NCBI GenBank assembly: GCA_005223085.1
Contig: NJBP01000054.1
Span: 1-13,243, forward strand
Length of the DNA: 13,243 nt
DNA from: Candidatus Aerophobetes bacterium Ae_b3b
GTDB taxonomy: Bacteria > Aerophobota > Aerophobia > Aerophobales > AE-B3A
Reading direction: 5' to 3'
In this document: positions 1,775 through 13,243 of the stretch, in pieces
Layout: each line of letters opens with the position of its first letter
Numbering within the stretch: position 1 is the stretch's first letter
The notes under the pieces: model-generated
Seen by the model: the letters and a program-made list of their open reading frames with translations, nothing else
Database searches by the model: none
Told to the model about the DNA's origin: nothing
Program-made: the position numbers and the translations under genes

Positions 1775-2167
1775 TTTAAGCTTGAGGTCAGCTCTGTTCA
1801 AAATACGTCGTCCATGGGTGGAACTGAACATGCCCGATGAGACAAAAGAGTCTATTGGCAAACTCTATTCGGGTAGAAAAATTAGGTGAAATCTGGATAT
1901 TGCATGTCTGGCTTTGGCAGTGAAAAATTTACCCCCCTCGATCTTTCTCTTTAGCTTCTCCTTCCCATCAGTAAACATTGGTACAAAAATTGCTATTTTG
2001 AGGATAGGAATTTCAACAATTTCTCTGGATCATTATCAAGTAAACCTCGGCAGACAAGATATCAGAAAAAAGAGGGGAGCAGGCCCTCTCTTGCCCTGAG
2101 CGAAGCGAGAGTCGGAGCTTTAGGGACCCCCCGCTGACTGCCTGGTTATTTTTTACCGGAGTAAATA
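1775..2167. other. Intergenic region between divergent ABC exporter and sensor kinase
   Basis: I see no convincing gene here. The plus-strand open frame at 1914-2099 has a weak TTG start, no Shine-Dalgarno and no recognisable protein. The region contains an inverted pair TGTTCA (1795-1800) and TGAACA (1825-1830), whose first arm lies in a 14-mer nearly repeated near 12218. It also contains a GC-rich, partly self-complementary stretch around 2085-2125 (CTCTC ... GAGAG). No clear plus-strand sigma-70 promoter for the sensor gene was found. Confidence 0.6.
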
Positions 2168-3529
2168 ATGCAAAGGTTGGGTCAAAAAGGTAGTTCTATA
2201 CCCGAGCAAGAGTTCGAGCGCAGCGACATAGTTCCCAGAATCAGACAGGGCACGAAAATTAGAATGATTGCCCTGATAATTTTTTTCAGCATTGTTTGCT
2301 TTGCTAAGTGGGGACTGGGCCTACCCTTACCCAATAATATCCTGGTGCTCACCATCGTCTGGCTGGTAGCTGGGGGTCTTTATGGTTTCTTGGTCAGAAG
2401 AGAAGCAAAGGTAAAGAGCATCAGGACCATGTATTCGAGGTACTTTCTCCTGGAGATGCTGATCCTCACCTTTATCCTCTATTTTTTGGGATTAGGCGGA
2501 TGGATGGGCGCTATCTTCTATATCTTTCCCATTATTTATGCTAATACGATTCTGCATAAAAAAGAGGGAAGAATCATTACTTTAGTTGCTGTTCTTTTTT
2601 ACCTCCTTCCCGTTTTTCTCGATTATTATCAGGTGGTAAGCCGGCGCCGTATATTAGCCACCTTCGACCTGGGCCCTTATCATGACACTGCTTTTGTTCC
2701 CATCACCAACTTAATTGTCCTCTGGGTGTTTCTTTTTGTGGGCTACACCAGCTCTGTCTTTGCCGAGATGGTGCGGTAGAAAAATCGAAAATTGCTAGAG
2801 CGTACCAGGGAGCTGGAAGAAATTCAGGAAAAGCTCGTACAAAAGGAAAGGCTAGCAGCCATGGGAGAGATGGCAGCAGGATTGGCTCATGAGATAAGAA
2901 ATCCACTGTCTGTTATCAGGAACTCAATCTACTTTCTCCAGACAGTACTTTCCGGTAAAGAAAAGATAAAAGTTGAAAAACATCTAAAGATTATTGACCA
3001 AGAAATAGACGAGACAGCCTCTATCATAGAAGAGCTTCTTAACTTCACCAGAGAAGTAAAACCCGAACTTTCCTGGACTAAGATTGATGATCTAATTAAA
3101 GAAAGCCTGAAAAGCCTTCCCATTCCGCGGAAGATCCGACTAGCCAAGAAACTGGGTAAAGATGTCCCCCGGATAAGATTGGACAAGGTTCAGATGAGGC
3201 AGGCTTTGAAGAATCTCATCACGAATGCTGTTCAAGCTATGCCTCAAGGAGGTGATCTTAAGATAGGTGTCAAGGTAAACAAACGGCATCTAGTCATCAG
3301 TGTTTCTGACACCGGGGAAGGAATCTCCGAGAAGAATTTGGAGAAGGTATTCCAGCCTTTGTTCACTACCAGAGCAAGGGGTATAGGTCTAGGTCTTGCC
3401 ATAACGAAGAGATTGATTGAGGCTAATCAAGGAGAAATAGAAGTAGAAAGTAGAGAAGGAGAAGGTGCCACCTTTTATCTCAAGTTACCTCTTCCTTCTG
3501 AGCAAATTCAGCGAGGTAAGTCAAATTGA
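2168..3529 (+). pseudogene. Membrane sensor histidine kinase, interrupted by an in-frame TAG
   Basis: Two open frames lie in the same reading frame, separated only by TAG at 2777-2779. The first (2168-2776, ATG with GGAG six bases upstream) encodes 203 residues with six predicted membrane helices, near 33-50, 57-77, 92-111, 113-129, 136-154 and 181-200. The second restarts at best at a TTG at 2792 without a good Shine-Dalgarno. It carries a coiled-coil linker and a complete kinase: H-box HEIRNP, N-box NLITNAVQAM, G1 DTGEG, F-box FQPLFTT and G2 GIGLGLAI. Read through, this is one protein of about 453 residues of the NtrB-like class. The break falls between the last helix and the dimerisation linker, a normal join within such kinases. 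It may be a nonsense mutation, a sequencing error, a functional split, or amber read-through. The receiver gene overlaps its end by 4 bp. Confidence 0.85.
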
Positions 3530-3870
3530 CCAAAGTTCTCATAGTAGATGACGATACCACCGGAGTAGAGACCCTCTCCAATGTTTTGGAGATAAAGGGA
3601 TACCGGGTAGATGCTGCCTATGGGGGGATGGAGGCCTTAGAAAAGATAGGGAGAACCAACTTTGATTTTGTTCTTCTAGACTTGAAGCTACCCGATATAA
3701 ATGGAGTCGAGACTTTCAGGAAGATTAAGAAAGTTAAGGATGGACTAAAAGTGGTAATAATGACCGCCTATTCTTTACCCCATCTCATTCAGGAAGCCAG
3801 AAAAGAAGGTGCCTTAGCTATTCTAACCAAACCTTTAAATATAGATGAGCTACTGTCTTTGCTCAAATAA
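3526..3870 (+). CDS. Stand-alone response-regulator receiver domain
   Basis: The protein has 114 residues and is entirely a CheY-like receiver, with no output domain. The acidic pocket is D8-D10 (VLIVDDD), the phospho-acceptor is D52 (LLDLKLPD), the switch threonine is T80 (IMTAY) and the conserved lysine is K102 (LTKPL). The start is TTG, overlapping the kinase stop as TTGA, which implies translational coupling. It is therefore the likely partner of the upstream kinase. Without a DNA-binding domain it must act by protein contact or pass phosphate on. If the TAG abolishes the kinase, this gene would also lose its coupled translation. No GC-rich terminator follows, only AT-rich sequence before the convergent gmhB. 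Confidence 0.9.
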   Translation: MTKVLIVDDDTTGVETLSNVLEIKGYRVDAAYGGMEALEKIGRTNFDFVLLDLKLPDINGVETFRKIKKVKDGLKVVIMTAYSLPHLIQEARKEGALAILTKPLNIDELLSLLK

Positions 3871-3894: not shown

Positions 3895-3918
3895 ATAATT
3901 AATGCTTTTGGTAATTAT
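3895..3918. repeat. AT-rich inverted repeat at convergent gene ends
   Basis: ATAATTA (3895-3901) and TAATTAT (3912-3918) form a perfect 7-bp stem with a 10-nt loop. It lies between the convergent receiver and gmhB genes and includes the gmhB stop. It is low in GC and lacks a U-tract, so it is only a weak candidate for a bidirectional transcription end. Confidence 0.35.
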
Positions 3919-4475
3919 CTCTCAGCAGAGTCGAGTTTCAATATCAGGTCAACTGCTGCGGATAAATCTGAGACGATATAGTCTGGACGGGTTTTGTCCC
4001 TCGGTAGATTCTTTACGCTGCCAGCCTTCTTGTCATCCTTGACCATCATAGTGGTGCATCCCACATAGCGGCCTGCTTCCACATCGCTAAGGTTGTCTCC
4101 CACGAGATACGAGCTTTTAAGATCGAGAGCAAAATCCCTGGCTGCTTTCAGCAAAAGTCCAGGCTTTGGCTTTCTACAGTTGCAATCATCCTCAGGTCTA
4201 TGGGGACAGTAATAAACCTTCTCGATCTTTCCCCCTGCTTGATGCACACCCCTCATCATTCTCTGATGGATATCCTCCACCGAGAGCCGGGATACAAGAC
4301 CTCTACCTACCGCAGACTGGTTGGTTATCACAATCACCGTACGATGATTGCCACTTAAACGCTTCAGTGCCTTCCTCGCCCCCGGAATCCAAACAAACTC
4401 ATCCCAGGACTTGACGTAATCATCCCTATCTTTGCAGATTATCCCATCTCGATCGAGAAAGACAGCTTTAGTCAC
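3915..4475 (-). CDS. gmhB: D-glycero-manno-heptose 1,7-bisphosphate phosphatase
   Basis: The protein has 186 residues, the normal length for GmhB of the HAD-IIIA subfamily. It removes the C1 phosphate of heptose 1,7-bisphosphate on the way to nucleotide-activated heptose for surface polysaccharide. The HAD motifs are present: FLDRDG with D8 and D10, ITNQS with T51, and GDNLSDVEAG with D127 and D131. The GmhB-specific zinc site is also complete (YYCPHRPEDDCNCRKPKPG: C90, H92, C98, C100). The start is GTG, overlapping the stop of the upstream gmhA stub as GTGA, so the two are translationally coupled. No full heptose isomerase or kinase is present in the window, only their 5' stubs. gmhB may therefore be a survivor of a broken operon, or be served by copies elsewhere. 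Confidence 0.93.
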   Translation of the reverse strand: MTKAVFLDRDGIICKDRDDYVKSWDEFVWIPGARKALKRLSGNHRTVIVITNQSAVGRGLVSRLSVEDIHQRMMRGVHQAGGKIEKVYYCPHRPEDDCNCRKPKPGLLLKAARDFALDLKSSYLVGDNLSDVEAGRYVGCTTMMVKDDKKAGSVKNLPRDKTRPDYIVSDLSAAVDLILKLDSAER

Positions 4476-4597
4476 AAAATCATCCTGTTTTCCCGGTAAG
4501 CCTGGAGCAAAATATTCTTGGTTTTCTCAATCTCTGAGTAAGGTAGTTTATCGAACGTTCCTTTTAATTCTGTCAGATGGTCTTCAATGAAGCTCAT
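4472..4597 (-). pseudogene. gmhA: N-terminal stub of sedoheptulose-7-phosphate isomerase (gmhA)
   Basis: A 41-codon frame starts at ATG with a strong GGAAAGGG Shine-Dalgarno and ends in TGA inside the gmhB start. The sequence begins MSFIEDHLTELKG and ends AYRENRMIL. It follows the first helices of GmhA/SIS-domain isomerases, in which this segment leads into the first strand and an FGNGGS substrate loop. It stops exactly where that strand would begin, so about 150 residues, including the whole active site, are absent. It cannot be an isomerase. I infer an internal deletion that joined the 5' end of gmhA to gmhB. The surviving stub still supplies a ribosome-binding site and coupling for gmhB. 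Assignment rests on recalled family sequence. Confidence 0.78.
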
Positions 4598-4817
4598 TTA
4601 TACCCTTTCCTTTTTATAAACTAGAGGTTTTCAGCTTAAGATAATTGTTAGCTTTCTCTTCAGAATATCAATCTCTATCTGGCAGGCTTCCTCTGCCAGT
4701 CTCCGGCTGGTTGAGACTGGGCCTGATACAGATGAAAAGCAATAGTCAAAACCAAGTTCCAGGTCAAAGAACGTCCACCGTTCCAACTCGATTGATCAAA
4801 TCCTACCTGTTTGTCCA
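4598..4817 (-). promoter_or_regulatory. Leader region of gmhA'-gmhB with two overlapping hairpins
   Basis: In the minus-strand transcript, CCAGTCTC pairs with GAGACTGG (4720-4713 with 4703-4696, loop 9). CTGGCAG pairs with CTGCCAG (4699-4693 with 4685-4679, loop 7). Both stems are perfect, and they share positions 4696-4699, so only one can form at a time. Neither is followed by a U-tract. No confident sigma-70 promoter was found in this segment, and no recognisable gene: the open frames here show no family I know. Confidence 0.4.
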
Positions 4818-5238
4818 TTACCTAAATGGATTGATAAACTTCATTCCTTCTATTTCAAGATTACGCTGAAAATCCTCTGTATAGATCCTAATCACGTTCG
4901 CCTCTTTAGCGGCAACAAATATCATAGCATCCCAGAAGTGTAAGTCATATTTATTTGCTGCTTCAATACTTGATAACAGAGTGTCTCTTCTCAGCCCTAT
5001 AACCTCCCAGGAAGAAAGATAATCTTCTATAATCGCCTTAGCCTCATTTTAGCTGATCGGTCTTTCGACCTTTTGAGTAACAACTATATAGAATTCCGAT
5101 AGAACCTGTATGCTTAGGACCCCTGCTTGACTGCTCCAGAGATGCTTGAGGAGTTTCGAAGCCTTAGGGTGTTTTTTTTTCGCTCGAATCATAGGCATAA
5201 ACTAAGATATTCGTGTCCAGAAAGAACTTATCTCTCAT
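4818..5238 (-). pseudogene. vapC: PIN-domain toxin VapC, broken by a frameshift and a stop
   Basis: The ATG at 5238 opens MRDKFFLDTNILVYAYDSSE, a classic PIN N-terminus with catalytic D8. A run of nine T on the plus strand (5172-5180) then shifts the frame. Removing one base restores HPKASKLLKHLWSS, then VLSEFYIVVTQKVERPIS with the catalytic glutamate. After that comes an in-frame TAA at 5049-5051. Beyond it the protein resumes with NEAKAIIEDYLSSWEV, FWDAMIFVAAKEANV and RIYTEDFQ, supplying the remaining PIN aspartates, and ends at TAA 4818-4820. Repaired, it would be about 139 residues, normal for a VapC ribonuclease. The frameshift alone could be a homopolymer sequencing error, but the second stop makes true inactivation likely. 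It overlaps the vapB end by 11 bp. Confidence 0.88.
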
Positions 5239-5428
5239 GTAGCTCTTCTTTGCTTTGGGATATGATCCTTCCCATGTCAAAGCCACTCCTTATCAACCTC
5301 AATTGCCTTTCTTTAGCTTGTTGGTGATCCTCCTCAAATATCACCGCTACCCTGGTTCCGTCTTTAGCTTCTACCTTTTCCAATAATTTAATAACCTGAC
5401 CTTGCAGTATTCCTTTAACTTTCTTCAC
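5228..5428 (-). CDS. vapB: VapB-type antitoxin
   Basis: The protein has 66 residues and starts MKKVKGILQGQVIKLLEKVE, followed by GTRVAVIF. This matches a small class of antitoxins with an AbrB/swapped-hairpin-like N-terminal DNA-binding part, placed before PIN toxins. The C-terminal half, rich in charge (HQQAKERQLRLIRSGFDMG), would be the toxin-binding segment. The start is GTG with AGGAG five bases upstream. Its frame is intact although the partner vapC, overlapping by 11 bp, is broken. A sigma-70 promoter lies about 35-60 bp upstream. In an intact module VapB binds VapC and represses the operon. Confidence 0.8.
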   Translation of the reverse strand: MKKVKGILQGQVIKLLEKVEAKDGTRVAVIFEEDHQQAKERQLRLIRSGFDMGRIISQSKEELHER

Positions 5429-5461
5429 CTATTCTCCTTTCATTAATTTCTTGTAAATTCA

Positions 5462-5490
5462 CTGATAGCAGTCTATTGGTCTGTTGTCAA
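5462..5490 (-). promoter_or_regulatory. Sigma-70 promoter for vapB-vapC
   Basis: On the minus strand there is a perfect TTGACA (5490-5485), a 17-bp spacer and TATCAG (5467-5462, four of six). The predicted leader to the GTG at 5428 is about 27 nt and contains the Shine-Dalgarno. Confidence 0.6.
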
Positions 5491-5500
5491 GAAGTCTAAT

Positions 5501-5524
5501 GTCCGAAGTCCTAGGTCCGAAGTC
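5501..5524. repeat. GTCCGAAGTC short repeats
   Basis: GTCCGAAGTC occurs at 5501-5510 and again at 5515-5524, a 14-bp period. Related GAAGTC fragments lie at 5491 and 5543. They are in non-coding sequence between vapB and the first YgiT-like gene. The array is too short for a CRISPR or a regular tandem array. Confidence 0.6.
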
Positions 5525-5628
5525 GGAGGTCAAAAACAAAGGCGAAGTCAACAATTCTTACACCAGTGAGCTAAGCCAATTAAAGTTCCCGGGCAACAGG
5601 GCGGACTGTCCACAAGTTGGACTTTTTC

Positions 5629-5871
5629 TTAGGTTTTGACTAACTCACGATAAGAAATAACCGGTATTTTAACACTTTCTTTTGCTTTTTCAGCCTGCAT
5701 TGTGCCTTTGTCCATTGCTTCAACAATATCAGGAGCGAAATACACTTCACCACACTGTCTGCAAACTTCGGCGGGAATACCTTCAAAAAGAATAATCTTA
5801 TCGCCCCATTGATGAATGTGTCGAATTTCCTTCGTTACTATCTCACCTTTACAAAAATAGCATCTTTTCAT
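5629..5871 (-). CDS. YgiT-type zinc-finger antitoxin (copy 1)
   Basis: The protein has 80 residues from the ATG at 5871, which I prefer to a longer frame from 5907 because GGAAGGA precedes it and the N-terminus MKRCYFCKGE fits the family. It has two CxxC pairs (C4/C7 and C37/C40) that should bind one zinc, as in the N-terminal domain of MqsA/YgiT. The characteristic phrase PAEVCRQCGEVYF follows the first zinc pair. The C-terminus KIPVISYRELVKT is short and lacks the helix-turn-helix of full-length MqsA. It starts two bases after the stop of the DUF4258 gene, so the two form a toxin-first pair. By family it is the likely antitoxin; no DNA-binding motif is visible. Confidence 0.82.
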   Translation of the reverse strand: MKRCYFCKGEIVTKEIRHIHQWGDKIILFEGIPAEVCRQCGEVYFAPDIVEAMDKGTMQAEKAKESVKIPVISYRELVKT

Positions 5872-5873
5872 AG

Positions 5874-6191
5874 CTATCCTTCCTTCCGTATCCGCCAGTC
5901 GATCCATCTATCTGGATCTGGCCGATAAATGGTAACAATGATCAACATAGTTGGATCTTTCATCCCACAAAGGATGTGAATCGGCTGTTCTTGAGCAGTA
6001 AAACCCAAAATTAAACTACTTGGACCTCTGGGGTCATTGGGATAATCTTCAATGACTTTACTCTTCGAAGAAAGTAAAGCTGTTTCTATTTCTGCCAGTG
6101 TAATTTGGTCGGCATCCCTTTCGTTTTCAGCATGAAGCGTTAAACGATACTTTCTTTCTTTGACTAAAGATCGTATTTGCTCAATATTCAC
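5874..6191 (-). CDS. DUF4258 protein, probable toxin (copy 1)
   Basis: The protein has 105 residues. It shows the DUF4258 pattern: an N-terminal [10 protein letters not shown], then [18 protein letters not shown], a PIHILCG strand and a C-terminal [15 protein letters not shown]. Genes of this family are typically found directly upstream of a YgiT/MqsA-type zinc-finger gene, and the pair resembles RelE/MqsR-like modules. The toxin role is inferred from family and context. The start is GTG with GAGGA close upstream, and the stop TAG is followed two bases later by the antitoxin ATG. It lies 41 bp downstream of a truncated DUF5615 gene and may be read from the DUF433 promoter region, since no separate promoter was evident. 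Confidence 0.82.
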
Positions 6192-6232
6192 TTATTCCTC
6201 GAAACCGGTCTGCATTTGTAATTTCATTTGTG

Positions 6233-6289
6233 TTATGAAAGGAACTCTACCGTTATTCTATATACATCCTGATCGATGAATAATTTCAT
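6233..6289 (-). pseudogene. N-terminal stub of a DUF5615 PIN-like toxin
   Basis: Eighteen codons, MKLFIDQDVYRITVEFLS, begin at an ATG that overlaps the DUF433 stop as ATGA. This is the same architecture as the intact pair at 9350-9948. The stub matches the first strand and helix of DUF5615 (VapC45-like) proteins, including the conserved aspartate after FID. A full-length relative has roughly 110-125 residues, so over 80 percent is gone. The sequence after the TAA shows no further recognisable DUF5615 parts. It must be inactive. Confidence 0.78.
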
Positions 6290-6513
6290 TCCGCGATATG
6301 TACTTCTTCCGATTTGACTATTTCAGTCGCATATTTTACGCAGGCCTGCACATCTTCTATCGTTAGATCAGGATAATATTTATCTATAATCTCCTGAAAA
6401 CTAATTCCTGCCTGAACAAGTTCAAGGACACAATATACGGGAATACGCGTGCCGGCAATACAGGGTTGACCAAAATGCACCTTATTATCAACAACAATGC
6501 GTTCCTTTTCCAT
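6286..6513 (-). CDS. DUF433 antitoxin (VapB45-like), partner toxin truncated
   Basis: The protein has 75 residues with the DUF433 signature: an N-terminal hairpin, then GQPCIAGTRIPVYCVLELV, and helices GISFQEIIDKYYPDLTIEDVQAC. The fold carries a winged/helix-turn-helix element and pairs with DUF5615 toxins. The start is ATG with AAGGAG about nine bases upstream. The stop overlaps the ATG of an 18-codon toxin stub, so the antitoxin is orphaned. It is a divergent relative of the DUF433 at 9350-9580, with the same GxPCIxGxRIPV core. It could still neutralise or regulate a related module, but this is inference. Confidence 0.85.
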   Translation of the reverse strand: MEKERIVVDNKVHFGQPCIAGTRIPVYCVLELVQAGISFQEIIDKYYPDLTIEDVQACVKYATEIVKSEEVHIAE

Positions 6514-6630
6514 TCTTCACCACTCCTTTCAGGATTTATTGTTTTTACTATACCCAAAAATAATATTATCACAAAACATCCATAATTACAACCCGAACAG
6601 TTAAACCAACCCGATTAGCTTTAGCATATA

Positions 6631-6691
6631 GTTCATAGCTCTTAGTTTTCTGATTTTTTTCTACTGTCCCTCTAATCCTTTTAATCCTCTA
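6631..6691. repeat. Short repeat patch 3' of the AAA+ gene
   Basis: GTTCATAGCTC (6631-6641) is the exact reverse complement of GAGCTATGAAC at 8111-8121, on the far side of the AAA+ gene. Next to it, CTCTAATCCTTTTAATCC resembles the TTTAATCCTTTAACCC array at 8083-8110. The patch runs into the AAA+ stop codon. Confidence 0.6.
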
Positions 6692-7969
6692 ACTTGGTTT
6701 GAAAGAAAAAACAGGCGAGAAGAAAACATTAGATTCACTTATTCTGGTGTGATAATAGAAATCTTTTGTGCATACATAAATTATCTCAGGGGAGTATTCG
6801 CTTATAAAGGACCTGATACTCCTTGAAATTTTGGGCCCTCTAAAAGAACGATACTTAACTTCATATGCTCTCAAGGTTTTACCTCGCAAAACAAAGTTCA
6901 TTTCGGCTCCAGCCTTCGTCCTCCAATAGTATATTTCATCAAGAAGATCTTTGCCCATTAGAAGCATTGAAAATACAGAGTTTTCTACTAATTCCCCGGA
7001 ACCACTCCTTGCCTCCAAAGGATTCAAGTCACCCATAACTACATTTCTGATTCCCGTATCTGTAAAATATAGTTTAGGCATTTTAGCAACTTCCTTCACT
7101 CTATTTGTATAAAACGGACTAATTAATTTTATGACGAAGGCACTTTCAAGAATAAAAAGGTATCGCTCAAGAGTACGCCGTGATATTCCACAAATGCTGG
7201 TGAGATTGGAAAAATTTAATGCCTTAGCTATTAAAGAGGCAAGTAATTTAAGTAACTTATTAAAGGCATAAGGGTTGTCTATACGGAAAAGGTCCTTAAT
7301 ATCTTTTTTGATATAAGAGCTCACTACATCCTTTAGGTATCCAATTTTCTCCTCTTTGGACTGTAGAAGCGAAACCTTCGGCAGACCACCAAATACTACA
7401 TACTCTTCAAAAAAACGGGAAAAATCGCTTTTAAAGAAGCGAGCTTTTTCCCAGTTGGCTGTATTCCAAAAATCTGCAAGTTCTTTTCTGCCTCTGAATT
7501 CGAGAAATTCGCCAAAATCGAGCGGATGAATATTAAACACAATCTTTCTTCCTGCTAAGGAGTCTTTAAATTTACTCCTTATAGCAAAAGATGATGAACC
7601 ACCTACAACCGCTTTAATCTCCTTATGATGGTCCACAAGAAGCTTTAAGAAGTTACTCGGATTTTCCATATATTGAATCTCATCAAGAAAGACAAAACAT
7701 CTTTCCTTTAAGTTCGCTCCGTTTGCCTCAAGAAAGGCAATGAACTCATCAATACCCCTATTTACTATCTCTAAGAGGCTCATATCCTCAAGGTCAAAGT
7801 AAAATACCCTATTTTTTTCTACTCTCTTCACATTGAGAAGCTTATCCATCAACAGCTGCATTATACTGGTCTTACCTACCTGCCTGGCTCCCAGAAGAAC
7901 AACCAACCTCTCATCTTTTAGAAGTCTGGTGAGAATATTCTCTGTAACTCTTCGTGGCTTTAGTCTCAT
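6689..7969 (-). CDS. AAA+ ATPase with DUF4143 domain
   Basis: The protein has 426 residues from the ATG at 7969, chosen over one at 7996 because GAGAGGTGAT directly precedes it. It contains Walker A GARQVGKT (27-34), Walker B FVFLDEIQ with D96 and E97, a sensor-like GGSSSFAIRSKFKDSLAGR and the HPLDFGEFLEFRG region, which together are typical of this archaeal/bacterial ATPase family. The C-terminal DUF4143 domain has LYFTDTGIRN, then YYWRTKAGAEMNFVL and AYEVKYRSF, a pattern like a PD-(D/E)xK nuclease fold. The biological role of the family is unsettled; it is widespread in horizontally acquired islands near toxin-antitoxin genes. It has its own strong promoter and no partner gene. It is intact and ends in TAG. 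Confidence 0.9.
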   Translation of the reverse strand: MRLKPRRVTENILTRLLKDERLVVLLGARQVGKTSIMQLLMDKLLNVKRVEKNRVFYFDLEDMSLLEIVNRGIDEFIAFLEANGANLKERCFVFLDEIQYMENPSNFLKLLVDHHKEIKAVVGGSSSFAIRSKFKDSLAGRKIVFNIHPLDFGEFLEFRGRKELADFWNTANWEKARFFKSDFSRFFEEYVVFGGLPKVSLLQSKEEKIGYLKDVVSSYIKKDIKDLFRIDNPYAFNKLLKLLASLIAKALNFSNLTSICGISRRTLERYLFILESAFVIKLISPFYTNRVKEVAKMPKLYFTDTGIRNVVMGDLNPLEARSGSGELVENSVFSMLLMGKDLLDEIYYWRTKAGAEMNFVLRGKTLRAYEVKYRSFRGPKISRSIRSFISEYSPEIIYVCTKDFYYHTRISESNVFFSPVFSFKPS

Positions 7970-8013
7970 ATCACCTCTCTTTTCGTAAATAATCATTCTA
8001 CTTTATTGAGGTT

Positions 8014-8042
8014 ATTTTAGTATATCCTTTACAATTTGTCAA
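8014..8042 (-). promoter_or_regulatory. Sigma-70 promoter for the AAA+ gene
   Basis: On the minus strand there is a perfect TTGACA (8042-8037), a 17-bp spacer and TAAAAT (8019-8014, five of six). The leader to the ATG at 7969 would be about 38 nt and include the Shine-Dalgarno, which supports that start. Confidence 0.8.
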
Positions 8043-8082
8043 GGATCAAGTCTAGCCCGCCCTTAGTTTGTTGAGTTTATCA

Positions 8083-8189
8083 GGTTTAATCCTTTAACCC
8101 TTTAATCCTTGAGCTATGAACTTTGTTTTGGTTTTGCCATGAGCTATGAGCTATCAGCTATGAGCTAACTTGAGTCATGAGCCATGAAT
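8083..8189. repeat. Degenerate 7-bp tandem array (GAGCTAT) and TTTAATCC array
   Basis: TTTAATCCTTTAACCC and TTTAATCC lie at 8084-8110, followed by GAGCTATGAAC (8111-8121). Four 7-bp units follow at 8141-8168: GAGCTAT, GAGCTAT, CAGCTAT, GAGCTAA. Then come looser GAGTCAT and GAGCCAT copies up to about 8187. The rest of the gap between the AAA+ gene and the second YgiT-like gene (8190-8349) shows no recognisable gene or signal. Confidence 0.65.
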
Positions 8190-8349
8190 TTTGTAAGGTA
8201 AGCTCATTTTCTCCACTCACCACCCAGAGCCCAACAAAGTAAGGATAACTTACCAGGTAGGTCTTAAAAGGAAATATCTCCCTTGGTTGGCACACTTAGT
8301 CTTCCTTGTCTTGCCATTTTTGAAGAAGATCTAATTCTTTACAGAAGCG

Positions 8350-8586
8350 CTATAGGTGAACTGAAGAAAGATCAAAAATAGGTATTTTGATTTTTTTCTG
8401 AGGGGTCTGTTTGTCCCAGATAATCTTTTGTAATCGTTCTACAGCTTCGGGATCAAATAATTTCTCGCCGCACTGCTGACAAACTTTTGCAGGAACATTT
8501 TCCACAATAATCCAGTGACCTTCATAGAAAAGAGTATAACTGATTAATTTCTTTTCAACTCTTCCTCCACATAAATCGCACCTCAT
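8350..8586 (-). CDS. YgiT-type zinc-finger antitoxin (copy 2)
   Basis: The protein has 78 residues from the ATG at 8586, chosen because GAGGAGGCGATAAAT precedes it and MRCDLCGGRV is the usual N-terminus. Two CxxC pairs (C3/C6, C36/C39) form the predicted zinc site, with the family phrase VPAKVCQQCGEKLFDPEAV. The C-terminal IKIPIFDLSSVHL is the short tail seen in zinc-finger-only relatives. It begins two bases after the DUF4258 stop, the same toxin-first arrangement as copy 1, to which it is clearly homologous but divergent. The stop is TAG, after which 17 more sense codons run in frame to TAA. I treat TAG as the true end. Confidence 0.82.
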   Translation of the reverse strand: MRCDLCGGRVEKKLISYTLFYEGHWIIVENVPAKVCQQCGEKLFDPEAVERLQKIIWDKQTPQKKIKIPIFDLSSVHL

Positions 8587-8588
8587 AT

Positions 8589-8894
8589 TTATCGCCTCCT
8601 CTTTTTGAAATCTATCCATTCTTCTACATCAGGTTCGTACACCGTAATAATCTTAATCTTTGGTCTGGTGGGATACGAACACTGAACATGCAAAGGCCTT
8701 TCTAAACTAGTTTTTCCATAAATAAGACAACTTGGGCCAAATTTATCTTCAGGATAATCTTCGATCATCTCACCATTCTCAATCGCCTCTAAAATTTCCT
8801 TACGAGTAATATATCTTAAAATACTTTGATCAACAGCATGGAGACTATATTCATAACGATTTTCCCTAAATGCTTTCCTTATCTTCTTAATCAT
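8589..8894 (-). CDS. DUF4258 protein, probable toxin (copy 2)
   Basis: The protein has 101 residues and is homologous to copy 1 across its length: YSLHAVDQSILRYITRKEI, EMIEDYPEDKFGPSCLIYG, LHVQC and IITVYEPDVEEWIDF. The DUF4258 fold is probably RelE/MqsR-like. The toxin role is inferred from the following zinc-finger antitoxin two bases downstream. The start is ATG, only six bases after the TATATT -10 hexamer of its own promoter, with no room for a Shine-Dalgarno in the transcript. Translation may therefore be leaderless, or begin from an upstream transcript. Divergence from copy 1 suggests separate acquisition rather than recent duplication. Confidence 0.82.
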   Translation of the reverse strand: MIKKIRKAFRENRYEYSLHAVDQSILRYITRKEILEAIENGEMIEDYPEDKFGPSCLIYGKTSLERPLHVQCSYPTRPKIKIITVYEPDVEEWIDFKKRRR

Positions 8895-8900
8895 TTTTTA

Positions 8901-8928
8901 AATATATCTCATTTTACCTAGAGGTCAA
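8901..8928 (-). promoter_or_regulatory. Sigma-70 promoter for DUF4258/YgiT copy 2, apparently leaderless
   Basis: On the minus strand TTGACC (8928-8923), a 16-bp spacer and TATATT (8906-8901) match ten of twelve consensus positions. The start codon ends at 8894, six bases past the -10, so the expected transcription start is at or near the A of ATG. Confidence 0.7.
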
Positions 8929-9128
8929 TCTTTCACGTCAAGAAAATCAACCATAGAATCCCCCTTCCTTTTTATTTAATACAAGCGGATATTACACGTA
9001 ACATAGCTTAACTCAAGAGAAAATCAAGTATTGCATATTCTCCTATATGAGCGAGATTCTTTGTGGATGAAATTCAAAAATCAAGACCTGACCCTAAAGC
9101 CTCCTGAGTATTAGTGGGCACGGGTAAA
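8929..9128. other. Intergenic region between divergent toxin-antitoxin modules
   Basis: No gene is evident. A nine-codon minus-strand frame (8925-8954, MVDFLDVKD) has a striking GGAAGGGGG Shine-Dalgarno and ends inside the -35 of the copy 2 promoter. It could be another gene stub or a leader peptide, but is too short to identify. Confidence 0.4.
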
Positions 9129-9157
9129 TTGACAAAATTTTTAAAGTTTGATAAAGT
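9129..9157 (+). promoter_or_regulatory. Sigma-70 promoter for the plus-strand DUF433/DUF5615 unit
   Basis: TTGACA (9129-9134), a 17-bp spacer and TAAAGT (9152-9157, four of six). It is upstream of the DUF5678-like stub and the DUF433/DUF5615 pair. Confidence 0.7.
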
Positions 9158-9214
9158 ACATTTTGTCTTTTAGAAAACGGGCATAAGAACAATATGTTGG
9201 TAGGGGTGATTTCA

Positions 9215-9334
9215 ATGGATGAAACCGCCAGATGGTTTAGGAGAGTAAATTTGAGAAAATATGAGGATAAGTATATCTCTATTGTGAATAAAGTCTACGC
9301 TTATTCAACACCTTTGTTTTGCCCAAAAAACTAA
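9215..9334 (+). pseudogene. N-terminal stub of a DUF5678-like protein
   Basis: A 39-codon frame starts at an ATG with GGGGTGAT four bases upstream; an in-frame ATG at 9194 is a less likely start. It reads MDETARWFRRVNLRKYEDKY and then ISIVNKVYAYSTPLF. The first 30 residues fit the start of DUF5678 proteins, in which a WF ... YEGKWIAIV-like segment is followed by a VVASG turn and about 35 more residues. Here the match ends after VNKV and the frame closes at TAA. DUF5678 proteins have no established function and often sit in small-gene clusters of the toxin-antitoxin kind. It shares the promoter of the following DUF433/DUF5615 pair. It may also be a genuine small protein. Confidence 0.5.
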
Positions 9335-9349
9335 AAGGAGATAACAAAG

Positions 9350-9580
9350 ATGAAATTTATCCGCATCACTGTTGAAGCAAACAAAATGGGCGGAGTGCCC
9401 TGTATCCGGGGATTGCGCATCCCGGTAGCGACGGTAGTAGGAATGGTAGCTGACGGGATGAGCGAGAAGGAGATATTGAAGGCATTTCCCGACCTTGAGC
9501 CCGAAGATATTCGCCAGGCCTTACATTATGCCGCCGAGGCCGTAAGAGAACGAGAAATCCCGCTGGTGAGTGCCTCGTGA
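9350..9580 (+). CDS. DUF433 antitoxin (VapB45-like)
   Basis: The protein has 76 residues: [20 protein letters not shown], then [20 protein letters not shown] and [17 protein letters not shown]. This is a full-length DUF433 domain. The start is ATG with AAAGGAG about nine bases upstream. The stop overlaps the GTG of the DUF5615 gene as GTGA, the usual antitoxin-toxin coupling. It should bind the DUF5615 toxin and the operon's promoter region. Compared with the orphan copy at 6286-6513 it shares the GxPCIxGxRIPV core but is otherwise divergent and lies on the opposite strand. Confidence 0.88.
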
Positions 9581-9948
9581 GGTTCTTGATAGACAACGTT
9601 CTTTCGCCTGTTGTTGCTGAAGGACTAAGGCAAGCTGGATATGATACGGTACATGTGCGAGACTATAGGATGCAATCTGCTCCGGATACCGAAATATTTG
9701 AGAGAGCCTTCATTGAAGACCGCATTATAGTTTCAGCAGATACCGACTTTGGCACGCTGTTGGCATTGCGACATGAAAAGAAGCCTTCGGTGATTCTGTT
9801 GCGTCATCCACAGAAACGACCCAAATCGCAGTTGGCTCTCCTTCTCGCTAACCTGACGAATATTCGTGAAGTACTAGAGCAGAGAAGCATAATAGTATTT
9901 GAGGCAACGCGTATCCGAGTGCGATCACTACCAATTCTCCAATCCTAA
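9577..9948 (+). CDS. DUF5615 PIN-like toxin (VapC45-like)
   Basis: The protein has 123 residues starting at [22 protein letters not shown], then an acidic [10 protein letters not shown] and SVILLRHPQ, and a C-terminal [15 protein letters not shown]. The conserved aspartates (D6 in the first strand, then SADTDF) form the predicted metal site of the PIN-like fold. It is the only complete DUF5615 gene here and forms an intact module with the overlapping DUF433 gene. A ribonuclease toxin role follows from family knowledge, not from this sequence. No hairpin terminator is visible after it. The next 46 bp run to the end of the convergent hddA stub. Confidence 0.86.
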
Positions 9949-9994
9949 GAGGAATTCCATGTAAAAAATAGTCTCGTCCCCATTTTCTTTGCTA

Positions 9995-10114
9995 TCACCT
10001 TTTGATAGAGACCGTACTTAATACAGCCCCACCTTCATTTAACCTGTAAAAGCCTTTAAAGTCGGTTCCACCACCAAAGAAGCTAATCCTTAGCGGTGTC
10101 TGGGTGATTATCAT
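9995..10114 (-). pseudogene. hddA: N-terminal stub of D-glycero-D-manno-heptose 7-phosphate kinase (hddA type)
   Basis: A 39-codon frame starts [19 protein letters not shown] and continues through [16 protein letters not shown] before TGA. The [14 protein letters not shown] and GGAVLST motifs are the hallmark N-terminus of the GHMP sugar kinases of the HddA group, which phosphorylate heptose 7-phosphate at C1. The full enzymes have about 330-350 residues; here homology ends near residue 35 and the ATP-binding GHMP motif is absent. The ATG is preceded by AGGA six bases upstream, and the insertion sequence ends about 12 bp further upstream. With the gmhA stub and gmhB on the same strand, this marks the remains of a heptose operon. 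A related GHMP kinase such as a fucokinase is possible. Confidence 0.82.
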
Positions 10115-10236
10115 CTCTATCCTGACTCAAGTTTGACAGTTGTAAAATATAAGTTCTTTATTCATCGTAATTTCAGCGATTAAAAATGAGGCGTACCACT
10201 AGGTTTACCTTTTGATCTTTGACAAAAAGCCTAATG

Positions 10237-11814
10237 TTAAAGTTCCTGTACTCGAGGAGGAACCTGAACTCCTACAGCTCGAAATGCCTTATGGGCAAGT
10301 CCTTGAAGTTCAGTCCTCACAAGATATGCTTTATCTTTGACAAAGAGCTTTATGGCCTTTACGCGACGGATATCCCTGATCACTTTCCAGACACTCTCTT
10401 TGACTCCTATTTCAGAGAGCTTTCTTTGTAAGGTAACAGTGAGAAGAAAGGCTAAAAAACAGATAAAGATGTGTCCCCTCACTCGAGAAGGAGTCCAGTG
10501 AAAGATGGGTCTTATCTTGAAGATGTCCTTTATGTCCCTGAAGGCATGCTCTATCATCCAAAGGTTCTTGTAGGCTCGTGCGACCTCCTCTGAGGAAAGA
10601 TCAGTACTCGTCTGAAGTACATACTTTCCATCGTAGCGAGCCTCTTTCTGGATTCTCTCTTTGTTAAGGATTATTCTTTTAGCTTCTATCCTTAAGAATC
10701 TCTTAGCATCTCCGGTTAAAACTCTAGCGAGAGAACCAGTGTGGATCTTCTCCTCTAAGTTTTTGATAATCGTCTCCCGCTCTTGTCTGTCCCTCTCTTT
10801 CTCCTCTGGATTGGAGCAGATGATGTAGCGCACATCACCAAGGATAGCTTCCTTTACCTTAAGGTTATCTTCCACCTTCCTGTAGCGGCCCGGTGTAGAT
10901 AAGACATGATCCCGTACCCTCTTAAATCCTCTCATCTTCACTCCTACGATGTACTCATAGCCTTCTTTCTCAATGAGTGAAAGGTTCTTCTCTCCTGCCA
11001 TACCCCTGTCGGCAACGAAGATGACCCGTCCTATCTTGAACCGCCTGGATAGAGTAGCTAAATCTGTCTTGAGAGTCTTCGAATCATACATGTTTCCGGG
11101 AAAGATCTCACATCCTATAGGGATACCCTCACCTGTCATTAAGATACCGATGATAACCTGGTTTGTATCAGGGCGATGATCTCGTGAGAAACCTTTTACT
11201 GCAAGGCTCTCGGGTCCTTCTCCTTCAAAGTAGATACTGGTGGTGTCATAAAAGACAACATTGAGCTTTAGGTTGAATAAGTTCTTTACCCTTTCAAATA
11301 AGTCCTTTTCAATTTTTTCCTTGTGCTCATCCAGAAAATCGAGTGAGCGGTAAAGGTGTTGGAGCTGTAAGCACTCAAGGCGAGGATCATATACCTCATC
11401 CAGCCACTCGTATACCCTTAGCTTACTGGAAGGAGTAAGAACCCTATTTAGGAGCATGGCAAAGATTGCTTCCTTTACAGGGAAGATGTGGTTATGATGA
11501 GAAAGATAAGCATCCAGGATGTCCTCAAGACCTAAGAGCTTAAAGAGTCTTTTGAAAATAAGAGGTGCTCCGTAGTCCTTATCGTCCTTAGCTAAAAGAT
11601 CCTTACTTATCTCAACGACCTCTAGTTTCTCACTGAACTTACTAAGACCCCTAATGAGGGTGTCCATGCCTCCCCTTTTAAGATCCTTGAGACGGCCCAG
11701 AGTGCAGATAACCCTCTGGTGGGGCTTGCCATTCTCCCATACACTTTTGGCGATTTGGAGATATATCCTCTTTGATCCATCTTTGTTCACAAATGTTTTT
11801 GTTCTCACAAACAT
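10237..11814 (-). CDS. IS1634-family DDE transposase
   Basis: The protein has 525 residues and is intact. The N-terminus MFVRTKTFVNKDGSKRIYLQ, followed by the HQRVICTLGRL segment, is typical of IS1634/IS4-like transposases. The catalytic triad can be placed as D190 (VVFYDTTSIYFE), D269 (IFVADRGMAG) and E422 in the YKNLWMIEHAFRDIK motif (Y415, E422, R426, K429). The long insertion between the second aspartate and the glutamate is normal for the IS4 superfamily. A near-consensus promoter places the transcript start about three bases before the ATG, so the message is probably leaderless, which would keep transposase levels low. The gene reads towards the hddA stub, so read-through could reach it. 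Confidence 0.93.
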   Translation of the reverse strand: MFVRTKTFVNKDGSKRIYLQIAKSVWENGKPHQRVICTLGRLKDLKRGGMDTLIRGLSKFSEKLEVVEISKDLLAKDDKDYGAPLIFKRLFKLLGLEDILDAYLSHHNHIFPVKEAIFAMLLNRVLTPSSKLRVYEWLDEVYDPRLECLQLQHLYRSLDFLDEHKEKIEKDLFERVKNLFNLKLNVVFYDTTSIYFEGEGPESLAVKGFSRDHRPDTNQVIIGILMTGEGIPIGCEIFPGNMYDSKTLKTDLATLSRRFKIGRVIFVADRGMAGEKNLSLIEKEGYEYIVGVKMRGFKRVRDHVLSTPGRYRKVEDNLKVKEAILGDVRYIICSNPEEKERDRQERETIIKNLEEKIHTGSLARVLTGDAKRFLRIEAKRIILNKERIQKEARYDGKYVLQTSTDLSSEEVARAYKNLWMIEHAFRDIKDIFKIRPIFHWTPSRVRGHIFICFLAFLLTVTLQRKLSEIGVKESVWKVIRDIRRVKAIKLFVKDKAYLVRTELQGLAHKAFRAVGVQVPPRVQEL

Positions 11815-11823
11815 GGCAAGAGC

Positions 11824-11852
11824 AATATACCATACTCTGTTTTATTTGTCAA
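11824..11852 (-). promoter_or_regulatory. Sigma-70 promoter of the transposase, apparently leaderless
   Basis: On the minus strand there is a perfect TTGACA (11852-11847), a 17-bp spacer and TATATT (11829-11824, five of six). The ATG at 11814 begins nine bases past the -10, leaving no space for a Shine-Dalgarno. Confidence 0.75.
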
Positions 11853-11992
11853 GGAACAAACCAATGAAATGTGGCATTAGGATTTACAAATTTGAAAAAC
11901 TAACTCCCCATTTTATGAGGGTTTCAGCGATCAAAATGCCCGTTTTTTAGCTTTGACTGTCAAAGTCGAGCCATAATTTTTGTTATCTGAAT

Positions 11993-12017
11993 CATCAGAA
12001 TTAGAAAAATTCTGATG
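11993..12017. repeat. Perfect 10-bp inverted repeat
   Basis: CATCAGAATT (11993-12002) and AATTCTGATG (12008-12017) pair perfectly around a 5-nt loop. No U-tract follows in either direction. It lies just outside the insertion sequence and downstream of the sigma-54 promoter, in the original leader of the heptose transcript. It could be an RNA hairpin or a protein-binding dyad. Confidence 0.6.
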
Positions 12018-12051
12018 CTACCAAAAAGAGATTGGTTTTAATAGGGAGATG

Positions 12052-12067
12052 AGCAAATTTTGTGCCA
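12052..12067 (-). promoter_or_regulatory. Sigma-54 (RpoN) -24/-12 promoter
   Basis: On the minus strand TGGCAC (12067-12062), five bases (AAAAT) and TTGCT (12056-12052) match the sigma-54 consensus TGGCAC-N5-TTGCW at every defined position. Transcription would start near 12041 and run leftwards, reaching the insertion sequence about 70 bp later. Without that element it would enter the hddA stub after a leader of about 80 nt. The gene for an NtrC-type activator ends about 200 bp upstream on the same strand. Confidence 0.85.
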
Positions 12068-12218: not shown

Positions 12219-12265
12219 TGTTCAAAATCCGACATGCCAACCTGCGTCAAAAGAAATTCTGAACA
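12219..12265. promoter_or_regulatory. Candidate upstream activator sites for the sigma-54 promoter
   Basis: TGTTCA (12219-12224) and TGAACA (12260-12265) are perfect inverted hexamers 41 bp apart. They are 150-200 bp upstream of the -24 element, the usual range for enhancer sites. The 14-mer containing the first arm recurs with one mismatch at 1794-1807, where it is again paired with TGAACA. Function is inferred only from position and repetition. Confidence 0.35.
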
Positions 12266-13243
12266 CTATTTGGCTAATTTATGCTTTTTTATTTTACTAT
12301 AAAGGGTAGTGCGGGAAATCTCCAAGATCTGGGCAGCTTTACTCAGATTCCAGTGAGTTTCCTCTAGAACAGCGGCCAAAAGACTCCTTTCCACCTCCCG
12401 CAAGGTTTTTGAACCGACGGAAAAGCTTACCTTGCCCAAAGAGGAAAGACTTCGGAAAGGAAGAGAGAGGTCTTCTTCTTCGATTGAGGGACCCTTGGCT
12501 AGGATGACTGCCCTCTCCAGGGTATTTTCCAGCTCCCTTACATTTCCTGGCCAGGGGTAAGAGATAAGGCGACCGAGAGCCTCTTTGCCAATTCCTTCCA
12601 CGTGTCTATTGACTGTTCTATATTTTTTCAAGATATATTGTGCCAGAAGCGGTATATCTTCTTTTCTCTCTCTTAAAGGAGGAAGATCAAAGCTGACCAC
12701 ATTAAGCCGATAAAACAGATCCTCCCGAAATCTTTTTTCTTTTATAGCCTGGAGAAGGTTTTGATTGGTAGCGGCAATGATTCTCACATCAACTTTAATG
12801 GTCTCTTCTCCCCCCACCCTTTCAAATTCACCTTCTTGCAAGACCCTTAGAAGTTTTGCCTGAGTGGTGAGAGGAATATCTCCAATCTCATCTAAAAATA
12901 AGGTTCCCCCATCGGCCAGCTCAAATCTACCCCTTCTCTGAATATAAGCATCGGTAAAGGCTCCTCTTTCATGACCGAACAACTCACTCTCCAGTACTCC
13001 TTCGGCCAGGGCAGCACAATTCACCGTAACAAATAAGTTTCTTTTGCGAGGGCTCCCCTGGTGAATGGCCCGGGCTACCAGTTCCTTGCCGGTTCCAGTT
13101 TCCCCGGTGACTAAAACAGTAGCCTCGGTCCTGGCTACCTGCTTTATCAGATCCTTTAACCTGCGCATTTCCTGGCTCTGGGTGATAATCTCTCCTTTTT
13201 TCTCTAGTTCGGCCCGCAGGAATCTATTTTCCTCCCTGAGGTT
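12266..13243 (-). CDS. NtrC-family sigma-54-dependent activator (partial, 5' end beyond right edge)
   Basis: The frame is open from the right edge to the stop, giving 325 visible residues. The internal ATG at 13168 is not the real start, because 25 further coding residues precede it (ending EIITQSQE), typical of the linker between a receiver domain and the AAA+ domain. Counting from that ATG: Walker A GETGTGKE (22-29), the sigma-54 contact loop as GAFTDA (69-74) instead of GAFTGA, Walker B GTLFLDEIGD (88-97), the arginine-finger region REDLFYRLNV, and YPWPGNVRELEN. A Fis-type helix-turn-helix (NLSKAAQILEISRTTLYSKI) closes the protein. It should remodel sigma-54 polymerase, most plausibly at the promoter just downstream. 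An N-terminal receiver is expected off-window. Confidence 0.93.
   Translation of the reverse strand, partial: NLREENRFLRAELEKKGEIITQSQEMRRLKDLIKQVARTEATVLVTGETGTGKELVARAIHQGSPRKRNLFVTVNCAALAEGVLESELFGHERGAFTDAYIQRRGRFELADGGTLFLDEIGDIPLTTQAKLLRVLQEGEFERVGGEETIKVDVRIIAATNQNLLQAIKEKRFREDLFYRLNVVSFDLPPLRERKEDIPLLAQYILKKYRTVNRHVEGIGKEALGRLISYPWPGNVRELENTLERAVILAKGPSIEEEDLSLPFRSLSSLGKVSFSVGSKTLREVERSLLAAVLEETHWNLSKAAQILEISRTTLYSKIKKHKLAK

Follow-up and report, generated by a model that had tools for sequence, protein, structure and literature searches.

We propose, with a probability of roughly 0.78, that a sigma-54 (-24/-12) promoter in a 13,243-nt stretch of DNA (hereafter the window) from a metagenome-assembled genome (MAG; 2.04 Mb, 88.6% complete) belongs to a small regulon through which sigma-54 directs the synthesis of surface polysaccharide (exopolysaccharide/O-antigen-like) in Candidatus Aerophobetes, interrupted here by an insertion sequence (IS). 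Comparative evidence supports the predicted promoter as a real one, and likewise supports its putative assignment to the neighbouring activator and to a surface-polysaccharide regulon, so that the functional area had been well guessed in a preliminary description of this DNA.

The promoter, TGGCACAAAATTTGCT at positions 12052-12067 on the minus strand, matches TGGCACN5TTGCW with 0 mismatches, having GG at -24, GC at -12 and the required spacing. As the preliminary description had reported, this full-consensus site follows the gene of an NtrC-type activator and points towards the IS; the transcript start that had been placed at about 12041 is also the +1 expected from the position of the site. 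The leftover leader between promoter and IS (11971-12051, minus strand) showed no convincing gene start on reading the sequence. At up to one mismatch, 0.23 matches to this consensus are expected by chance per window. Genome-wide, exact sites were found twice, in the window and on contig C14, and not at all with a reversed-pattern control, while sites with at most one mismatch numbered 57 versus 21 in the control. A second candidate sigma-54 promoter in the window, TGGTACAAAAATTGCT (1979-1994, plus strand), has one mismatch and lies ahead of a histidine kinase gene and a receiver-only gene (2168-3870, plus strand) that it probably serves. The kinase gene (2168-3529) contains an in-frame stop at 2777-2779, and the receiver gene downstream is intact.

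Each of the nine family genomes had exact sigma-54 sites; together they numbered 17, and the reversed pattern gave 1. The genes following the intergenic exact sites mostly belonged to receiver/Wzz exopolysaccharide, receiver/kinase, glycosyltransferase and sugar nucleotidyltransferase operons, with some others among them. In relative G001, for instance, the promoter precedes a sugar nucleotidyltransferase gene, and the exact site on C14 precedes genes for a receiver-only protein and a Wzz/tyrosine-kinase-like chain-length protein. Sites located in coding regions (G002:C66, G006:C75, G006:C148, G008:C156, G007:C129 and window position 9750) were judged to be chance matches. Farther along the C14 polysaccharide operon (L143:8773-13118) are genes for PqqD-like and radical SAM proteins, for a protein with weak similarity to HprK and for a signal peptidase, a set that hints at an associated modified peptide. 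One-mismatch sites were also seen before pilB- and pilT-like genes, named by eye (L210:1501, L213:1501; G000:C6, C9), suggesting that type IV pili may share the sigma-54 regulon.

The element that the window promoter faces (10126-11970, minus strand) had been described as an IS1634 element lying between the promoter and a heptose-kinase stub, and this assignment holds, as its transposase scored 409.8 bits against NF033559 (cut-off 100) and inverted repeats are present at about 10126 and about 11970. The transposase ORF (10237-11814, minus strand) has the orientation of the sigma-54 promoter, which would therefore transcribe the transposase if it is active now. No target-site duplication was found at the ends of the window copy (CCTGA/CCATA), whereas a sister copy on contig C22 has a perfect 5-bp duplication (TCTCA/TCTCA). 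For this reason flanking DNA may have been lost, and the two flanks of the IS need not have been neighbours. Since duplications can be lost after insertion, the missing duplication bears on how this copy came here and not on its family: it shares the transposase family and the terminal inverted repeats with other IS1634 elements, and differs from them by having no target-site duplication.

On its far side the IS adjoins the start codon (10114) of the heptose-kinase stub, as had been noted before, although the measured distance is 11 bp instead of 12 bp. The 39-codon 5' stub of this hddA-type GHMP heptose kinase gene (9995-10114, minus strand) was confirmed by best matches that were 63-70% identical to GHMP/heptose kinases. 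It is broken independently of the IS. The same is probably the case for a 41-codon 5' remnant of a probable gmhA (4472-4597, minus strand), which runs straight into an intact gmhB-type heptose bisphosphatase gene (3915-4475, minus strand; 180.2 bits, cut-off 178), the only copy found in the genome. The identity of the gmhA remnant is tentative: its alignment beat 500 of 500 shuffles against the gmhA of contig C37 and 491 of 500 with a second sequence, and did not stand out against two others. The hddA stub and the gmhA remnant are about 5.4 kb apart, with toxin-antitoxin-like genes between them. Window positions 4600-10000 hold small toxin-antitoxin-like and ATPase genes (DUF4143-type by eye), several of which resemble repeated DUF4258/YgiT-type pairs.

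An intact nucleotidyltransferase-hddA-gmhA row, without gmhB, is present on C37 (L179:15917-18248) in a Wzx/glycosyltransferase polysaccharide locus. Judged from this incomplete MAG, the window gmhB may have been retained because it completes the C37 heptose pathway. Set against the GDP-heptose pathway HddA/GmhA/GmhB/HddC, the window has an hddA stub and gmhB, of which only gmhB is intact, and C37 has the nucleotidyltransferase, hddA and gmhA, so that the pathway, if working, is split over two loci. No clear gmhB was detected in the family relatives, where only very weak HAD matches were obtained. As a probe for relatives gmhB was discarded, having no close family matches and 31-42% identity outside the order.

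Gene order in relatives bears on the original target of the promoter. In G004 the activator gene is followed by the promoter and then by the beginning of a gene that resumes past a transposon and there encodes a Wzy_C O-antigen-ligase/polymerase; the exact-consensus site of this genome, TGGCACAGAAATTGCT, lies 210 bp past the activator gene, compared with 199 bp for its window equivalent. This promoter region downstream of the activator is present twice in G004, in nearly identical form on different contigs (L261:1-482 and L043:2600-3060), each copy being interrupted by a transposon at the polymerase gene. In G005 the activator gene is followed by a radical-SAM gene and then by an enhancer half and the promoter; this contig ends 20 nt downstream, and a search for an overlapping contig that continues it found none. 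G006 and G003 have an acyl-CoA-synthetase-type gene after the activator, and the sigma-54 site is absent there. Heptose genes were found at none of 80 activator-homologue loci. A polysaccharide gene is the likeliest target to have been served by the window promoter.

We give about even odds to a history in which an IS-associated deletion or recombination removed the original first gene or genes, for example one for an O-antigen ligase, after which hddA came to be adjacent secondarily. Such a loss would fit the missing target duplication in view of the perfect 5-bp one at the C22 sister copy, the gene order in G004, and the decay on both sides of the locus (stubs, toxin-antitoxin-like genes and the in-frame stop of the kinase gene). 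However, three of the five flanking bases (CCTGA/CCATA) still match, so that an eroded duplication is possible, and IS1634 relatives can produce target duplications of variable length.

The preliminary description had held that the activator controlled an hddA-gmhA-gmhB operon directly, through a leader of about 80 nt, until a simple IS insertion severed it. This would agree with the ribosome-binding-like AGGA of the hddA stub and its start just past the IS in the direction of the promoter, with the presence of gmhB farther along in the same direction, with the role of heptose genes in surface polysaccharide synthesis, and with the G001 promoter ahead of a sugar nucleotidyltransferase gene. 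Against it stand the absence of a target-site duplication, a gene order seen in no relative, the O-antigen-ligase gene behind the G004 promoter, and the failure to find gmhB in family relatives beyond the HAD matches mentioned above. Relatives without the IS in which the promoter directly precedes hddA were not found within a limited sampling. We consider this course of events unlikely, and it is equally doubtful that hddA was the original first gene of the promoter; given the gene orders in relatives and the IS flanks, the promoter did not have to adjoin the heptose stub originally. The proposed heptose target is not supported by the G004 locus, by the 80 activator-homologue loci or by the ends of the IS.

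The activator gene next to the promoter (12266-13243, minus strand) encodes an NtrC-type sigma-54 activator with an AAA+ domain, a Fis-type HTH and a GAFTDA loop (Sigma54_activat, 247 bits; AAA_lid; HTH_8), and its receiver domain is found on the adjoining contig C12. Both ends of the window share exact 127-bp overlaps with other contigs, C14 on the left and C12 on the right, and it is on such k-mer overlaps that the joins C14-window-C12 are based. C12 carries, in one direction, the activator receiver domain, a gene for a 1067-aa membrane histidine kinase and a gene for RpoN, the latter two directly upstream of the activator. The C12 RpoN has the DNA-binding domain (Sigma54_DBD PF04552, 89.8-91.8 bits) and the RpoN box SRRAVAKYRKEL; with 91.4 bits against a cut-off of 277.35 it remains below the full-length equivalog TIGR02395, and it is a divergent paralogue. 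Two divergent RpoN paralogues occur in the family (L270:7771-8949, L271:6149-7327, L272:5427-6557, L273:5172-6302, L040:3700-4869), the other one having a degenerate box, SRRSISDCRKNL; in G006 and G003 this second paralogue stands in tandem with an activator of its own that has a GAFTGA loop. The search for RpoN yielded none in five of the nine family MAGs, all five of which are incomplete, and one of the five, G002, has the start of an rpoN gene at a contig end. The GAFTDA loop is shared by the window activator, its orthologues and the activator on contig C3, while 80 sampled activator homologues comprised 53 with GAFTGA, 2 with GAFTDA, 1 with GAFTSA and 24 that were unread by pattern.

Upstream of the sigma-54 sites we found a dyad, TGTTCAAAATACGTC...TGAACA, with a usual length of 36 nt. 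It is a likely enhancer, located where binding of an activator of the NtrC type would be anticipated. A 36-nt copy (1795-1830, plus strand) precedes the 1979 site by 149 bp. The putative enhancer of the window promoter (12219-12265, minus strand; 152-198 bp upstream) has a 47-nt form, TGTTCA-N35-TGAACA, with a strong half-site, TGTTCAAAATCCGAC. It is 11 nt longer than the 36-nt form, and 11 nt equals about one helical turn.

Full dyads were upstream of sigma-54 sites in 8 of 8 cases. In the nine genomes, all five exact half-sites lay within 300 bp upstream of sigma-54 sites with at most one mismatch, and when one mismatch was allowed in the half-site, 19 were found versus 6 for the reversed pattern, 12 of the 19 in that same position relative to sigma-54 sites; the half-site consensus was drawn from some of the regions later counted, and the out-of-sample pairs are those in G004:C27, G007:C132 and G003:C26. 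Nine 36-nt dyads were present in 302 kb of loci, as opposed to 0-4 for each of the remaining spacings between 28 and 59, and the fair test is one spacing against another since these loci were chosen partly for holding sigma-54 sites. Eight of the nine were ahead of sigma-54 sites, and the ninth was without the inner letters. No good dyad was found at the exact site of G001. Another dyad, at L266:1287 close to the C3 activator, has different inner letters and was for that reason set aside as a chance occurrence.

It would also be conceivable that the dyad is bound by another regulator, such as the PrsR-like C3 activator, and that the window activator serves other promoters. The genome indeed encodes three strong sigma-54 activator domains (the others on C2 and C3), and the C3 protein reached 467.7 bits to TIGR02915 although it is cut at a contig end (L266:1-1230, G000:C3). 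We nevertheless regard this as rather improbable, because dyad halves adjoin the gene of the window activator in two genomes, G000 and G004, and are close to it in G005, and because in G002 the rpoN start, which is of the type found in the window operon, adjoins and is divergent from a dyad, a sigma-54 site and a receiver-Wzz operon.

G005 has the same promoter core, and the 32 nt compared there, which extend into the first part of the leader, are 87.5% identical; the enhancer half beside it is kept at 84% over 43 nt. That the window site is a chance match without promoter function is highly improbable: single-sequence consensus matches can be accidental, as the control counts for one-mismatch sites indicate, but this match is exact, its core is kept in G005 amid diverged intergenic DNA, its placement in G004 is comparable, and an activator gene and an enhancer dyad are adjacent to it.

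From the sites, the dyads, the gene order and their conservation we infer how the regulon that includes the window promoter could operate with respect to phosphorylation, binding, transcription and the identity of the dyad-binding activator. Successive genes from C12 into the window would encode the divergent RpoN, the histidine kinase of the membrane and an activator of receiver-AAA+-Fis architecture. Once phosphorylated, the activator would probably bind the TGTTCAAAATNCGTC dyads about 110-400 bp upstream, and its AAA+ domain would open the RpoN polymerase complex at TGGCACN5TTGCT. The predicted regulon would include the C14 receiver-Wzz operon and the window kinase/receiver pair and, in relatives, operons for an O-antigen ligase, glycosyltransferases and nucleotidyltransferases. 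At the window promoter, the IS1634 element 80 nt downstream would have separated the first target gene or genes, or replaced them through an associated deletion. Only tentatively, the two sigma-54 paralogues may each be wired to their own activator, such that RpoN-2 (SRRAVAKYRKEL), the kinase and the GAFTDA activator would read TGGCAC/TTGC polysaccharide promoters via the 36-nt TGTTCA dyad, with RpoN-1 (SRRSISDCRKNL) in tandem with a GAFTGA activator. If true, sigma-54 would have co-evolved with its activator loop, enhancer and promoter as an insulated set.

A complete signalling chain of kinase, activator, dedicated sigma-54, enhancer, promoter and polysaccharide genes can in this way be predicted for an uncultured phylum from nothing but its sequence, and the prediction includes an explicit DNA motif open to testing in vitro. 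The window locus would be an example of a regulon promoter decaying through an IS, and it cautions that a promoter and a gene flanking an IS need not be former neighbours.

The closest known counterpart is the PrsK/PrsR system of PEP-CTERM/exopolysaccharide bacteria, for which two DNA motifs, one for sigma-54 and one for the activator, have been described (Haft et al. 2006, PMC1569441). Shared features are the tandem of membrane kinase and NtrC-like activator, the sigma-54 motif with a distinct activator motif (a putative one in the window system) ahead of it, the association with exopolysaccharide genes, and a similar promoter-to-gene spacing (mean 71 nt in PrsK/PrsR, PMC1569441). The family models are TIGR02915 for the activator (cut-off 502.6) and TIGR02916 for the kinase (cut-off 300). 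Orthologues of the window activator, which is itself split over two contigs, scored 413-429 bits to the former, with AtoC matching better, and its identification as PrsR was rejected on this score. The G005 kinase, which is cut at a contig start, scored 100.9 against the cut-off of 300, and TIGR02916 was absent from the best 25 matches of the C12 kinase. Unlike the 17-nt TTTACA motif of PrsK/PrsR, which is about 63 nt away, the Aerophobetes motif is a 36/47-nt TGTTCA dyad located much farther upstream; the Aerophobetes targets are polysaccharide operons, and an rpoN paralogue stands in the gene row. Sigma-54 has been recognised as a controller of the cell exterior, with sigma-54, its activators and its promoters tied to exopolysaccharide and lipopolysaccharide genes (Francke et al. 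2011, PMC3162934). The linkage to surface polysaccharide genes is shared with that theme, although the published analysis was made across phyla and the Aerophobetes case concerns one lineage. Among the papers searched we found no description of this lineage, its enhancer or its paired rpoN paralogues, and no directly relevant report on RpoN with heptose genes. Sigma-54 control of heptose synthesis, previously put forward as an uncommon regulatory link, would be less uncommon than claimed, since surface polysaccharides are already established as a target of sigma-54 (PMC3162934, PMC1569441). Since the window system resembles PrsK/PrsR yet falls below its family scores and differs in motif and spacing, and since control of surface polysaccharides by sigma-54 is already recognised, we place it within the known sigma-54/exopolysaccharide regulatory theme, to which it adds.
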